Positions 2,616 through 12,386 of a stretch of DNA of 20,360 nucleotides are shown here, piece after piece. The DNA is from a virus. The position numbers were made by a program, and so were the translations under genes. Position 1 is the first letter of the stretch. Every line of letters starts with the position of its first letter. The notes under the pieces were generated by a model, which was given only the letters and a program-made list of their open reading frames with translations, ran no database searches and was not told where the DNA came from. Location of the stretch: positions 1 to 20,360 of the IMG/VR virus record IMGVR_UViG_3300022725_000134; one strand, given 5' to 3'.

Positions 2616-3251
2616 ATGCCGAGCCGTCATACCGAGCGCACGCTCCAACGCCTGGAGCGGGCGGGCAAGGGCGTCCTGGCGCAGATCGTGGCGGACGGCC
2701 TGAACCGGACGGGCTTCGAGGTCCTCGACGCCGAGAAGGCACACGTCGGAGGAGTCTTCAAGGCCAAGGGATCGGCGGCGAACTTCCTGCGCCGCAGCCT
2801 GATCCTCCGCAAGGCCTCACCCAGGCACCTGGTAGTGCGCATCCTGATGCGCGAGAAGGGCGCCAAGGTCGTCCGGGATCACATCCGGGGCGGTGCCATC
2901 GAGGCCGACGCGCGGCGTCTCACCTTCGGCGACAAGCTGGCGGTGCCGGTAGGCGTGAAGCGCAGCGCACGCGGCCGCGTAGCGAAGCGCATGCGCCCGT
3001 CCGAGGTGGTGAAGCCCGGCCGCGGCGGGTTCGTGAACCGGAGCGGAACGGCGATCCTGCGGCGCGTGGGGGGCAAACGATCCCCCCGGCTGAAGGTGCT
3101 CTACGCCCTCGTGGAGCGCGCACACCTTGAGCCGCGGTTCGACTTCTTCGGCGTGGCAGCGCGCAAGGCGAAGCGCAAGCTCAAGGATCGGATGCGCCGG
3201 GCCTTCGAGAAGCGAGCGTCGGCCAGCCGAGCACGCCCCAGCGGTACGTGA
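2616..3251 (+). CDS. Minor tail protein Z-like (tail completion)
   Basis: The 211-residue, strongly basic protein starts at ATG 2616 (MPSRHTERTL); the same frame is open upstream to ATG 2565, but that adds 17 Pro/Leu-rich residues of gap sequence. The layout follows lambda gpZ: an N-terminal part with ADGLNRTG then a segment ending FLRRSLILRKASP (gpZ: an AINR helix, then LVKERARLKRA), a middle region of short strands and basic turns, and a C-terminal ILRRVGGKRSPRLKVLYAL followed by a long amphipathic basic helix (KAKRKLKDRMRRAFEKR). In gpZ the matching region reads VMQRVAGKNRYPI and then a similar helix. GpZ-family proteins act in tail completion and head-tail joining. The position upstream of the terminase is unusual; lambda Z lies between FII and U, a slot empty here. 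The match is by eye, so family assignment is moderate. Confidence 0.55.
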   Translation: MPSRHTERTLQRLERAGKGVLAQIVADGLNRTGFEVLDAEKAHVGGVFKAKGSAANFLRRSLILRKASPRHLVVRILMREKGAKVVRDHIRGGAIEADARRLTFGDKLAVPVGVKRSARGRVAKRMRPSEVVKPGRGGFVNRSGTAILRRVGGKRSPRLKVLYALVERAHLEPRFDFFGVAARKAKRKLKDRMRRAFEKRASASRARPSGT

Positions 3252-3353
3252 CGCGCGCGGGTCCTTCCTCAAGGTCTAGCCTGCGGGTACGCGCGGCGCG
3301 CAGACTGCGATTAGTGGTAAAACCCCCATAGGGTTCCGAAAGTCAGGGGCGCG
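3252..3353. other. Non-coding gap before the small terminase gene; candidate cos/terminase-binding region
   Basis: This 102-base gap holds a GC-rich near-palindrome (GCGCGGCGCGC, 3291-3301) and an inverted repeat AACCC/GGGTT with a 5-base spacer (3321-3335) in a locally AT-richer patch. Phages with a lambda-type terminase often have cos just upstream of the small subunit gene, so this is the natural place to look. I see no sequence that proves a cos site. A weak ribosome binding site (CAGGGGCG) precedes the ATG at 3354. Confidence 0.3.
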
Positions 3354-3926
3354 ATGCCCACCCACGGCCCGGACCTCACCGAGCTCTCGATCACCCAGCT
3401 CGCCGCGCTGACGGGCTGCGCGAAGGCCACGACCAGAAGCCGCCTGAACGCGAAGGGCGTGAAGCCGGTGCGCGAAGACGGCCGGACGCTCTACTACCAC
3501 CCGCCCACGGCGTTGCCGGTGATCCTCGGCCAGGGCGAGGGACTGAACCCGCAGGCCGAGAAGGCCCGCCTGGACCGCGTCTCGGCAGATCTGAAGGACG
3601 AGGAGCTGAAGCGCATCCGCGGCGAGACCGCGACGCGCGCCGAGTGGGAGGCCGCGACGGTGGCGCTGGCCTCCGCCCTGCGCGCCCGGCTCCTGGCCGT
3701 CCCGGCCCAGATCGCGGCGGAGGTGGCGGCCGCTGGCGGCAAGCCCGCGGAGTGCCATGCGATCATCGAACGCGCGCAGCTCGAAGCGCTCGGCGGCCTC
3801 GCGAAAGCGACCCCCGAAGCCGCGCCTCGCCGCCGTGCCCGCAAGTCCGGTGGTGCGGGAGGCGCTCGCGGTCGCGCTCGCAAGTCTCAAGCCGCCGCCA
3901 AGAAGAAGCGCAAGGGAGTGGGCTGA
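3354..3926 (+). CDS. Terminase small subunit, Nu1-like
   Basis: The small terminase subunit recognises the packaging site on phage DNA and hands it to the large subunit. The 190-residue protein has an N-terminal winged-helix-like DNA-binding segment (residues about 9-50, SITQLAALTGCAKATTRSRL then KPVREDGRTLYY). A helical linker follows with the Nu1/DUF1441 hallmark of DPxxERARL type (here LNPQAEKARLDRVSADL, about 64-80), then ETATRAEWEAA and long helices for oligomerisation (about 97-150). The C-terminus is highly basic (RRRARKSGG to AAKKKRK). Length fits lambda Nu1 (181 aa). The large subunit follows at once, with an overlap. The family call rests on the HTH, the ARLDR motif and the neighbour. 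Confidence 0.85.
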   Translation: MPTHGPDLTELSITQLAALTGCAKATTRSRLNAKGVKPVREDGRTLYYHPPTALPVILGQGEGLNPQAEKARLDRVSADLKDEELKRIRGETATRAEWEAATVALASALRARLLAVPAQIAAEVAAAGGKPAECHAIIERAQLEALGGLAKATPEAAPRRRARKSGGAGGARGRARKSQAAAKKKRKGVG

Positions 3927-9535: not shown

Positions 9536-9781
9536 ATGCCCGTCGTCCGAAGCAAGGGCCCCGGCGACCTGACCGTCTGGTACGCCGACCGCATCCTCCG
9601 AATCGGCCGGGACTGGTGTCGCGTGACCGCGGACCAGCTCCGGTGCCTTCGCCACAAGGCGGAGGGCAGGTTCGAGGTGCGGCGCCGGCGTGGCGGTCGC
9701 CGCGGGAGACCGAGTCGAGAACGGAACGAGCAGGGGACCGCCCGGAGCGAATCCGCGCGGTCCCCTGCCAGCACCGCCTAG
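9536..9781 (+). CDS. Small hypothetical head-region protein (first of a related pair)
   Basis: The 81-residue product starts at ATG 9536, three bases after the capsid stop, with no good Shine-Dalgarno, so it probably depends on re-initiation. Its first 40 residues (VVRSKGP, LTVWYADRILRIGRDWCRVT) clearly resemble the start of the gene at 9791 (VRSKGPELVVRYAGRRLRIPDHW), which points to an ancient tandem duplication. The rest is very basic (RRRRGGRRGRPSRER), unlike the acidic tail of its partner, and its 3' end is taken up by a 12-bp inverted repeat. Function unknown; position suggests a head accessory role. The basic tail may be a decayed copy, or may bind DNA. Confidence 0.6.
   Translation: MPVVRSKGPGDLTVWYADRILRIGRDWCRVTADQLRCLRHKAEGRFEVRRRRGGRRGRPSRERNEQGTARSESARSPASTA
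9730..9768 (+). promoter_or_regulatory. Large perfect hairpin after the capsid gene (attenuator or partial terminator)
   Basis: GCAGGGGACCGC (9730-9741) and GCGGTCCCCTGC (9757-9768) are perfect 12-bp reverse complements. Inside the loop a further CGG/CCG pair (9743-9745 with 9753-9755) closes a 7-base loop AGCGAAT. The element sits at the 3' end of the small gene at 9536 and ends 12 bases before the strong AGGAGG ribosome binding site of the gene at 9791. No T-run follows. It resembles the partial terminators or mRNA-stabilising hairpins often found downstream of capsid genes. Confidence 0.65.
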
Positions 9782-9790
9782 GAGGTCCAG

Positions 9791-10063
9791 ATGGCCACCG
9801 TGCGCAGCAAAGGACCGGAGCTCGTCGTCCGGTACGCGGGACGCCGCCTCCGCATTCCGGATCACTGGGTCGAGATCGACGATGCCGCGATGGAGACCCT
9901 ACGCAGAGAGCTCGGAGAGCGTCTCGAGGAGCGCGAAGGCGCGTCGCTTTCCACTCCCCGGGTCGAGGAGACCGGGGCGGTCCGCCCGACCAAGACCGAC
10001 AACCCGCCCACGTCCGAGCGTGGGGAGAGCCGCCCCGACGAAGACGCGGGCGAGAAGCAGTAG
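9791..10063 (+). CDS. Small hypothetical head-region protein (second of a related pair)
   Basis: This 90-residue protein starts at ATG 9791 behind a textbook AGGAGG (9780-9785) that overlaps the previous stop. Residues 1-45 form a short strand-rich part (TVRSKGPELVVRYAGRRLRIPDHWVEIDD) similar to the product of the gene at 9536. The remaining half is low-complexity and charged (SERGESRPDEDAGEKQ), likely disordered. It lies between the capsid and cement protein genes, so a role in head assembly or decoration is plausible, but I recognise no family. Confidence 0.7.
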   Translation: MATVRSKGPELVVRYAGRRLRIPDHWVEIDDAAMETLRRELGERLEEREGASLSTPRVEETGAVRPTKTDNPPTSERGESRPDEDAGEKQ

Positions 10064-11211: not shown

Positions 11212-11613
11212 ATGCCCGATCCGATCACTGGCAACAAGACCCTGTTCTCGATCGAGGTCGATACGGACGTCTGGGTCGTCCTCGCGCGTCAGCGCAACGC
11301 CCAGGTCCAAGGACAGAGCCAGCGGATCAACGCCTCATCCAAGGACGACGGCGCCGACGGCACCTTCCTGACGGGCCAACGCACGAGCACCCTCACCCTC
11401 GAGGGTCTCTTCACGATCGGCGACCCGGCGCTCCAGAAGCTGAAGGACGCCCAGGCCGCGCAGACCGAGGTGAACGTCCGCCGGGTCCAGGACAGCGTCG
11501 AGATCGAGCAGGCCACGTGCGTGGTCGAGGACGTCTCCGAGAACCACCCCGACAACGAGGTGGCCACCGTGTCGGTGACCCTCCCCCTGAAGGGAGGGTG
11601 GAGCGCGATCTAG
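11212..11613 (+). CDS. Major tail tube protein
   Basis: A GGGGGAGG site lies just upstream of ATG 11212. The 133-residue protein has the tail tube style: an N-terminal GNKTLFSIEVDTDVWVVLARQRNAQV, a central loop DDGADGTFLTGQRTSTLTLEGLF, a helix DPALQKLKDAQAAQ and C-terminal strands NEVATVSVTLPLKGGWSAI. Tube proteins stack as hexameric rings around the tape measure. It follows the terminator and precedes the chaperones and tape measure, the V position in lambda. Its stop TAG lies within the palindrome CTAG (11610-11613), which also supplies the stop of the convergent lipoprotein gene. Confidence 0.85.
   Translation: MPDPITGNKTLFSIEVDTDVWVVLARQRNAQVQGQSQRINASSKDDGADGTFLTGQRTSTLTLEGLFTIGDPALQKLKDAQAAQTEVNVRRVQDSVEIEQATCVVEDVSENHPDNEVATVSVTLPLKGGWSAI
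11578..11599. terminator. 8-bp perfect hairpin at the convergent gene junction
   Basis: ACCCTCCC (11578-11585) and GGGAGGGT (11592-11599) are perfect reverse complements with a 6-base loop. The hairpin lies in the last codons of the tail tube gene and starts 10 bases past the stop of the reverse-strand lipoprotein gene, so it is well placed to end the leftward transcript. No T-run follows on either strand, so termination would be inefficient or need a factor. Confidence 0.4.
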
Positions 11614-11804
11614 TTCCCCGGCTGCGTGCCCTTCAGGTACTCCATCTGGAGGGGCCAGCCCTGTCCGGGCTGCGTGGCCGACTCGATGACGGTCCGCCCG
11701 ATCTCGCGGCCATCGGCATCGAACTGCACCTCGACCGTGCGGGTGTAGGTCGTCTGGACGCAGCCCAACAGCCCCGCCCCAACCAGCGCAAGAACGATTC
11801 GCAT
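11610..11804 (-). CDS. Small reverse-strand lipoprotein, probable moron
   Basis: This is the only gene I accept on the minus strand. The 64-residue product has a basic start (MRI), a hydrophobic core and the lipobox LLGC with Cys15, the mark of signal peptidase II processing. The mature protein is about 50 residues (CVQTTYTRTVEVQFDADGRE and onward), Thr/Val-rich with two likely beta-strands. Residue +2 is Val rather than Asp, which in enterobacteria would favour the outer membrane. A GGGAGG site lies 6 bases before the ATG, and a possible promoter lies further upstream. It shares the CTAG stop with the tail tube gene. An independently transcribed gene placed against the flow of a late operon is the usual form of a moron. 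By analogy with phage lipoproteins such as Cor and Llp it might block superinfection, but I see no sequence match to them. It is not an Rz1 spanin: no overlapping Rz gene and few prolines. Confidence 0.75.
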   Translation of the reverse strand: MRIVLALVGAGLLGCVQTTYTRTVEVQFDADGREIGRTVIESATQPGQGWPLQMEYLKGTQPGN

Positions 11805-11830
11805 CGTGGACCTCCCGTCCGAGCCCAGCC

Positions 11831-11859
11831 ATCTGCCATGACGCGGGCCCCGAGGTCAA
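11831..11859 (-). promoter_or_regulatory. Candidate promoter for the reverse-strand lipoprotein gene
   Basis: Read on the minus strand, TTGACC (11859-11854) matches 5 of 6 bases of the sigma-70 -35 box. It is followed after 17 bases by GCAGAT (11836-11831), a poor -10 box. Transcription would start near 11824, about 20 bases before the ATG. The weak -10 keeps confidence low. Confidence 0.35.
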
Positions 11860-11909: not shown

Positions 11910-12386
11910 GTGACCTTACCGACCCAGCGCTACGTGCGGTTCGACGTGGCGGACACCCCCTTCTGCCTTCGCTTCGACGTGAACGTCCTGTGCGAGCTCG
12001 AGGAGCTGCTCAGCGCCCCTGCCCATGTGCTGCTCCAGCGCATCGCGCCCCCGCCGGGCGTGACGGCAACGGCGGGGTATCGCGAGTGGCGCGCCTTCTT
12101 GTGGGCGGGGCTGCGGGGCTACGTGCGCAGCTACGGCGGGACCGAGCGCACGCTCGACCAGGCCGGAGACCTGCTGGGCGAGTACGGCGTCGAATCCTTC
12201 GCCGGACCGATCACCGAGGCGCTCATCTTGGCGATGCCGGCCCACCGATCCGGCAACGGGGACGCGAAGGAGGAGGACGCCGCCGAGGGGGAAGCCGGGC
12301 GCCGGCCGGGGGAGACGAGTGGTGGCGCCGCCTCCTCGTCCGAGCCCTCGAAGCCGGCCTCGACCACGACGGCTTCGCCCGCCTGA
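11910..12386 (+). CDS. Tail assembly chaperone, G-like
   Basis: A GTG at 11910 has GAGGA 6 bases upstream; an ATG at 11838 in the same frame would add 24 Pro/Arg-rich residues and overlap the lipoprotein promoter, so I prefer GTG. The 158-residue product has a compact N-terminal domain (VRFDVADTPFCLRFDVNVLCELEELL, then EWRAFLWAGLRGYVRSYGGTERTLDQAGDLLGEYGVESFAGPITEALILAM) typical of GTA/siphovirus tail chaperones that keep the tape measure soluble. A charged, low-complexity tail follows (KEEDAAEGEAG and SSSEPSKPASTTT). A second domain in the -1 frame follows at once, as in lambda G/GT. Confidence 0.75.
   Translation: MTLPTQRYVRFDVADTPFCLRFDVNVLCELEELLSAPAHVLLQRIAPPPGVTATAGYREWRAFLWAGLRGYVRSYGGTERTLDQAGDLLGEYGVESFAGPITEALILAMPAHRSGNGDAKEEDAAEGEAGRRPGETSGGAASSSEPSKPASTTTASPA
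12285..12314 (+). other. Probable -1 programmed frameshift region (G to GT)
   Basis: Between the G-like and T-like frames lie two runs of five G in the zero frame, GAG-GGG-GAA (12285-12293) and CCG-GGG-GAG (12306-12314). Either lets the peptidyl tRNA slip one base back on GGG, but neither is a perfect X-XXY-YYZ heptamer. The downstream T-like domain has no start codon near its beginning, so frameshifting is the simplest way to make it. Confidence 0.5.

Follow-up and report, generated by a model that had tools for sequence, protein, structure and literature searches.

The tail operon of this phage carries, on the reverse strand between its tail-tube and tail assembly chaperone genes, a real gene of 64 codons that is predicted to encode a small lipoprotein. 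We propose that this gene probably represents a horizontally acquired, moron-type envelope lipoprotein carried as prophage cargo, most likely modifying the envelope of its carrier. The analysis covered a whole virus record of 20,360 bp, without a host assembly behind it, which we call the window. Features are collected in Table 1.

Table 1. Coordinates of the lipoprotein gene, its signals, its flanking genes and its bacterial homologues
Feature	Position	Strand	Details
Lipoprotein gene	11610..11804	-	64 codons, ATG 11804 to TAG 11610; translation, codon signature, shuffles, homologues
Predicted signal peptide II region MRIVLALVGAGLLGC with lipobox LLG-C	11760..11804	-	Read from the translation
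Shine-Dalgarno-like GGGAGG	11811..11816	-	6 nt before the ATG
Weak promoter-like pair TTGACC (11859-11854), 17 nt, GCAGAT (11836-11831)	11831..11859	-	7/12 matches
Tail-tube (major tail) protein gene	11212..11613	+	PF06199, E 3.4e-9; PHROG 1407, E 9.5e-15
Tail assembly chaperone gene	11910..12386	+	PHROG 2115, E 2.2e-13
Homologue in Caballeronia sp. M1242	NZ_CP071131, 77012-77155		Degenerate copy, lipobox lost
Homologue in Caballeronia G873	G873:C5:1153442-1153630		Intact lipoprotein gene, unannotated

A real gene with a lipobox

The open reading frame (ORF) translates as MRIVLALVGAGLLGCVQTTYTRTVEVQFDADGREIGRTVIESATQPGQGWPLQMEYLKGTQPGN. Its N-terminus reads MRIVLALVGAGLLG, followed by the predicted cleavage site and CVQTTYT..., with LLG directly before the cysteine. 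Hence, MRIVLALVGAGLLG-C displays the pattern by which lipoproteins are recognised: a basic n-region, a hydrophobic core and a lipobox cysteine within about 30 residues. Processing is predicted to remove residues 1-14 as the signal peptide, leaving a mature protein of 50 residues that starts with a lipid-modified Cys15, which is its sole cysteine, and contains three prolines. The preliminary description had proposed a 64-residue gene on this strand with a lipobox LLGC and its own ribosome binding site. The gene has exactly that position, strand and length, the lipobox is present in the translation and recurs at the same place as LLSG-C in one of the Caballeronia homologues (G873), and GGGAGG precedes the start codon. 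This anatomy supports the assignment of the ORF as a lipoprotein gene, lipidation itself being a prediction.

High GC gives rise to many long antisense ORFs in this window, as would be expected if the frame were merely open by chance on a non-coding strand. Codon usage tells against such a reading. The GC content at codon positions 1, 2 and 3 (0.66, 0.46 and 0.89) is like that of the flanking and structural phage genes of the window, and the log-odds score for codon use amounts to 0.29 per codon, where pieces of true genes range from 0.11 to 0.54 (5-95%) and the 95th percentile of antisense frames is at most 0.17. In addition, none of 3000 dinucleotide shuffles of the interval gave an ORF of at least 55 codons in which a basic n-region and a hydrophobic core precede a lipobox, and the joint occurrence of lipobox and Shine-Dalgarno sequence was absent from them as well. 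The gene is the window's sole lipobox ORF of this type. The significant homologue with an aligned lipobox, described below, already refutes a chance origin unless the match itself is an artefact. On the codon score, the shuffles and the homologue we reject the chance ORF, the probability of which is practically negligible, and conclude that this is a real gene with the codon signature of this phage's genes.

The signals for its transcription are less pronounced. The preliminary description had pointed to a possible TTGACC promoter. This hexamer is present and matches five of the six positions of a -35 element, but the promoter would be weak: the best -10 hexamer at a 17-nt distance, GCAGAT, matches only 2/6 of TATAAT, and a promoter scan reported no site at this pair. 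Hexamers with at least 5/6 matches to TTGACA are scarce in the window, with only 46 on both strands (0.11 per 100 nt). As for the moron trait of an own promoter and terminator, the gene lies on the opposite strand with its own Shine-Dalgarno sequence, the promoter-like pair is weak, and no terminator-like site was found for it. Compared with shuffled sequences, an RNA hairpin at the gene junction shows no excess stability on the lipoprotein strand (z -1.4); the plus strand gives z -2.5, though mostly within coding DNA.

Insertion into a lambda-like tail module

The window contains a lambda-like morphogenesis module, with a GpA terminase, a lambda portal, a 691-codon capsid-region gene, a cement protein, Phage_attach, a tape measure, NlpC/P60 and a GpJ-like tip. 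No integrase or repressor was recognised within this 20-kb fragment. The lipoprotein gene is convergent with the tail-tube gene and divergent from the chaperone gene. Both flanking genes had been named as such in the preliminary description, and the profile matches in Table 1 agree; a further match of the chaperone to PF11836 was under the cut-off. The tail-tube and lipoprotein genes have 4 bp in common, the palindrome CTAG (11610-11613), in which both stop codons lie, and the 296-bp gap between the tail-tube and chaperone genes is filled by the lipoprotein gene.

Some other peculiarities were observed in this module. The chaperone frame stops at 12386, while the -1 frame runs on to 12592 (...WWRRLLVRALEAGLDHDGFARLTLRELDQHLEAYDRRTTRLAWAIARM...) as a plausible GT-type extension; a programmed -1 frameshift might occur at the sequence CCG GGG GAG at 12306, a possible slip site. 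The capsid-region gene is followed by two neighbouring small ORFs (9536-9781 and 9791-10063) whose starts, MPVVRSKGPGDLTVWYADRILRIGRDW and MATVRSKGPELVVRYAGRRLRIPDHW, are similar, pointing to one small gene duplicated in tandem. Meanwhile, the otherwise phage-like ORF 72-1406 contains, at about 278-790, an in-frame piece of aconitate hydratase B (168 residues; PDB 1l5j, E 1.9e-71) with a GC content of 0.59, against 0.78 and 0.75 in its flanks. This segment is either an assembly chimera or a captured host fragment.

To place the junction among related phages, chaperone relatives were collected with a three-sequence alignment, yielding 36 viral contigs in which the distance between tail-tube and chaperone genes is -1 to 126 bp, against 296 bp here. 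In a locus from Ancylobacter (L008), the two genes, assigned by position and length rather than by profile, overlap by 20 bp. No small lipobox ORF with a Shine-Dalgarno sequence, nor any comparable reverse gene, was present in these 37 related loci. Junctions of -20 to 126 bp devoid of such a gene indicate that the insertion is specific to this lineage, and the gene thus displays the moron trait of an extra gene absent from syntenic relatives (the 36 viral contigs and the Ancylobacter locus). The moron-like insertion on the reverse strand of the tail operon, as first described, is supported by this comparison together with the codon signature and the shuffles, and the reading as a moron-type accessory gene is well supported by the anatomy.

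The sequence of the nearest relative recovered, L004, which reaches 67% in the capsid-region gene, breaks off short of the tail-tube/chaperone junction. Its copy of the morphogenesis module has an extra gene of another type, namely a Sulfotransfer_2 domain gene (PF03567, E 3.4e-8; about 3200-3778) directly after the cement gene. The Ancylobacter locus lies inside a 1-Mb bacterial contig, indicating that the lineage includes prophages; from this relative, the present phage may also be temperate.

Homologues in Caballeronia

The preliminary description had named a lack of conservation of the reverse frame in related phages as a refutation, and on this point the outcome is mixed: the frame is absent from every related phage locus, yet two Caballeronia genomes outside these phages have conserved the protein. 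The first relative emerged from a tblastn search of PLSDB, which matched Caballeronia sp. M1242 with an E-value of 3e-7 in 7.3 Gb (51% over 46 aa). This copy lies between LysR and MFS genes, in an interval that has no annotation in the PLSDB gene table (which is itself incomplete), and its N-terminus, MKACTQPSLALRC-PYTKSV, is without a lipobox. When 379 genomes of the family were searched with a profile, an intact homologue was found in a second genome, G873, whose group was taken as Caballeronia from its genus-mate G839, the carrier of the M1242 sequence. The encoded protein, MVLTPCAISVLLSG-cleavage-CVSTTYTKSVSVRKDADGKIIERIETESVTQPNQSGWPIKLKHLKGVQS, would use a TTG or GTG start. It shares 29 of 51 residues (57%) with the phage protein, in an alignment that begins at the lipobox, reaches the C-terminal end and contains a single gap (pairwise E-value 1e-20). 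The signal peptide and lipobox were thus lost in M1242 and kept in the related G873, a case of decay in one of two close species.

The phage and Caballeronia genes share their length, the lipobox (LLSG-C in G873), the CV-TTYT mature start, and the motifs DADG, ES-TQP-Q, GWP and LKG. They differ in that the bacterial gene is chromosomal, without phage genes nearby, and in the missing lipobox of the M1242 copy. Nucleotide identity between the phage and G873 genes is 0.70, 0.70 and 0.45 at codon positions 1, 2 and 3. Third positions diverge most, as expected under selection on the protein, which suggests that selection acts on the lipoprotein sequence. Among 58 Caballeronia genomes, two carry the homologue, both at one chromosomal locus with LysR/MFS-type neighbours and no phage genes, so that its distribution is sporadic there too. 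Loci L081 (1495-1686) and L058 (7960-8147) are copies of the Caballeronia homologue. By its sequence, the phage gene belongs to a small, sporadic and apparently horizontally moved lipoprotein family common to this phage and Caballeronia.

Other searches returned no relatives. The lipoprotein had no family match in Pfam, PHROG, NCBIfam or PADLOC, no sequence match in the PDB, and no relative in exact-peptide and alignment scans of IMG/VR, and tblastn against phages gave chance matches only (E at least 4). The preliminary statement that the sequence resembles nothing familiar is thus true for phage and family databases, but relatives exist in Caballeronia. A scan with the degenerate pattern GC-xx-TTYT returned 11 loci and no lipoproteins. 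About 60 weak matches in Burkholderiaceae were rejected as chance, lying mostly within larger open frames; among three that were inspected, two match only a DNDGQIFE[RK]IVIESIT-like stretch and the third has no match there. Matches in wider samples (399 genomes of Burkholderiales, 399 of Pseudomonadota, 181 of Alphaproteobacteria, and 147 of the order of G003) were also judged to be chance, since the alignments inspected (L061, L063, L065, L066, L068, L073 and L113) were poor, short or interrupted by stop codons. A match in Deinococcus (E 0.5) was not accepted as a relative.

Possible roles of the lipoprotein

In the absence of a functional family match, any function proposed here is an inference. 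AlphaFold2, run without an alignment, predicted a beta-hairpin (residues 19-28 and 34-44) with a block pLDDT of 93-94; the model is floppy outside the hairpin, with a mean pLDDT of 69. Foldseek against the PDB returned nothing similar (best E 1.3). In enterobacteria, Asp at position +2 retains a lipoprotein in the inner membrane. The mature protein has Val at this position, and by the enterobacterial rule it should go to the outer membrane.

We envisage a lambda-like siphophage with an accessory gene placed in reverse orientation at its tail-tube/chaperone junction. The gene product would be exported by Sec, lipidated by Lgt on Cys15, cut by signal peptidase II and, with Val at +2, sorted by Lol to the outer membrane. 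There, the beta-hairpin and the conserved TQPxQ-GWP-LKG tail would face the periplasm or, with lower probability, the cell surface. In a prophage or uninduced cell, where late transcription is off, the weak leftward promoter could serve the gene, and during lytic growth rightward late transcription over it would silence it. The anchored lipoprotein would then change the envelope of the carrying cell, a form of conversion. The small size, sporadic occurrence and horizontal movement of this family, and its solitary presence in a few Caballeronia chromosomes, make modification of the carrying cell's envelope its most likely effect.

Several known systems resemble this arrangement. In Salmonella prophage transcriptomes, a position antisense to lytic genes has been described as characteristic of moron loci, such as STMMW_20121 of ST64B (PMC7067206). 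Like those loci, our gene runs against the lytic operon and independent transcription is expected; transcription was shown there and is inferred here, and the products are unrelated as far as tested. Lambda Bor is also a small lipoprotein moron of a lambda-like phage, and its expression from the prophage has been noted (PMC9928086). However, no Pfam or PHROG match connects the two, and with no Bor model among the matches we rejected an assignment to Bor. T5 Llp and Cor are, like the product of this gene, small phage proteins with a lipid anchor, presumably located on the inner side of the outer membrane. They exclude phages, which for the lipoprotein described here would be a candidate role, and it has no match to them in sequence or fold (PHROG, Pfam, PDB).

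One concrete version of the envelope reading is exclusion in the manner of T5 Llp, with the lipoprotein binding an outer-membrane receptor from inside. As superinfection exclusion proper, it would bind an outer-membrane protein from the periplasm or cell surface and block adsorption or DNA entry of the same kind of phage. This role would suit a small, lipid-anchored, beta-rich protein encoded outside the lytic programme, and small phage lipoproteins with such action are known: T5 Llp, which binds FhuA (PMC9586334), and Ltp of Streptococcus thermophilus (PMC3952083). Yet the protein matches no exclusion lipoprotein in sequence or fold, it is missing the second cysteine with which Llp forms its Cys11-Cys58 disulphide (PMC9586334), and the stand-alone chromosomal copies in bacteria show no obvious link to phage defence. 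We regard exclusion proper as unlikely, though deserving of consideration, and a role as a new exclusion factor as possible but unproven. It is distinctly speculative that the conserved pattern (CVxTTYT...DADG...TQPxQ-GWP-LKG) defines a new family of lipoproteins, carried by phages for exclusion or conversion, which target an outer-membrane protein from the periplasmic side through a hairpin-plus-tail module unrelated to Llp, Cor or Bor, with the Caballeronia copy domesticated as a stand-alone protection gene.

The gene might instead be a functionless passenger, a bacterial lipoprotein gene captured not long ago and tolerated by a permissive junction, as its lineage-specific insertion, its weak promoter, the aconitase B piece in the same contig and the degenerate copy in M1242 would allow. 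The intact frame, the good Shine-Dalgarno sequence and the conservation at the protein level make this improbable, and codon use that fully matches the phage argues against a recent capture. We consider it very unlikely that the leftward RNA is the working product, which past 11610 would be antisense to the tail-tube mRNA and would exclude superinfecting relatives or tune late expression, the protein being secondary. The antisense location in the late operon, the overlap of the gene's end with the tail-tube stop codon, and the antisense RNA that mediates superinfection exclusion in prophage BTP1 (PMC7067206) speak for such an RNA, but the protein is conserved in Caballeronia with no tail gene near, and third codon positions are the most divergent. 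Finally, an Rz1-like outer-membrane spanin, or another lysis or virion lipoprotein of the lytic cycle, would be of similar size and location and is hardly credible here: the gene runs against the late operon, its neighbours encode the tail tube and the chaperone, and three prolines in 50 mature residues contrast with 9.5-26% in Rz1/LysC proteins of Burkholderia phages (PMC3091744). With no inner-membrane partner (i-spanin) gene adjoining and a protein that is not proline-rich, we rejected the Rz1 assignment.

The moron-type envelope lipoprotein thus remains our best reading. Recognising an accessory gene within a morphogenesis module from its sequence is difficult; in this case, support came from codon use, the insertion relative to related phages and a distant bacterial homologue. 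Small genes of this kind are easily missed by annotation, as exemplified by the M1242 copy. The lipoprotein gene defines a small, undescribed family common to a phage and Burkholderiaceae, and is a compact candidate, open to testing, for a role in modifying the envelope or excluding phages.
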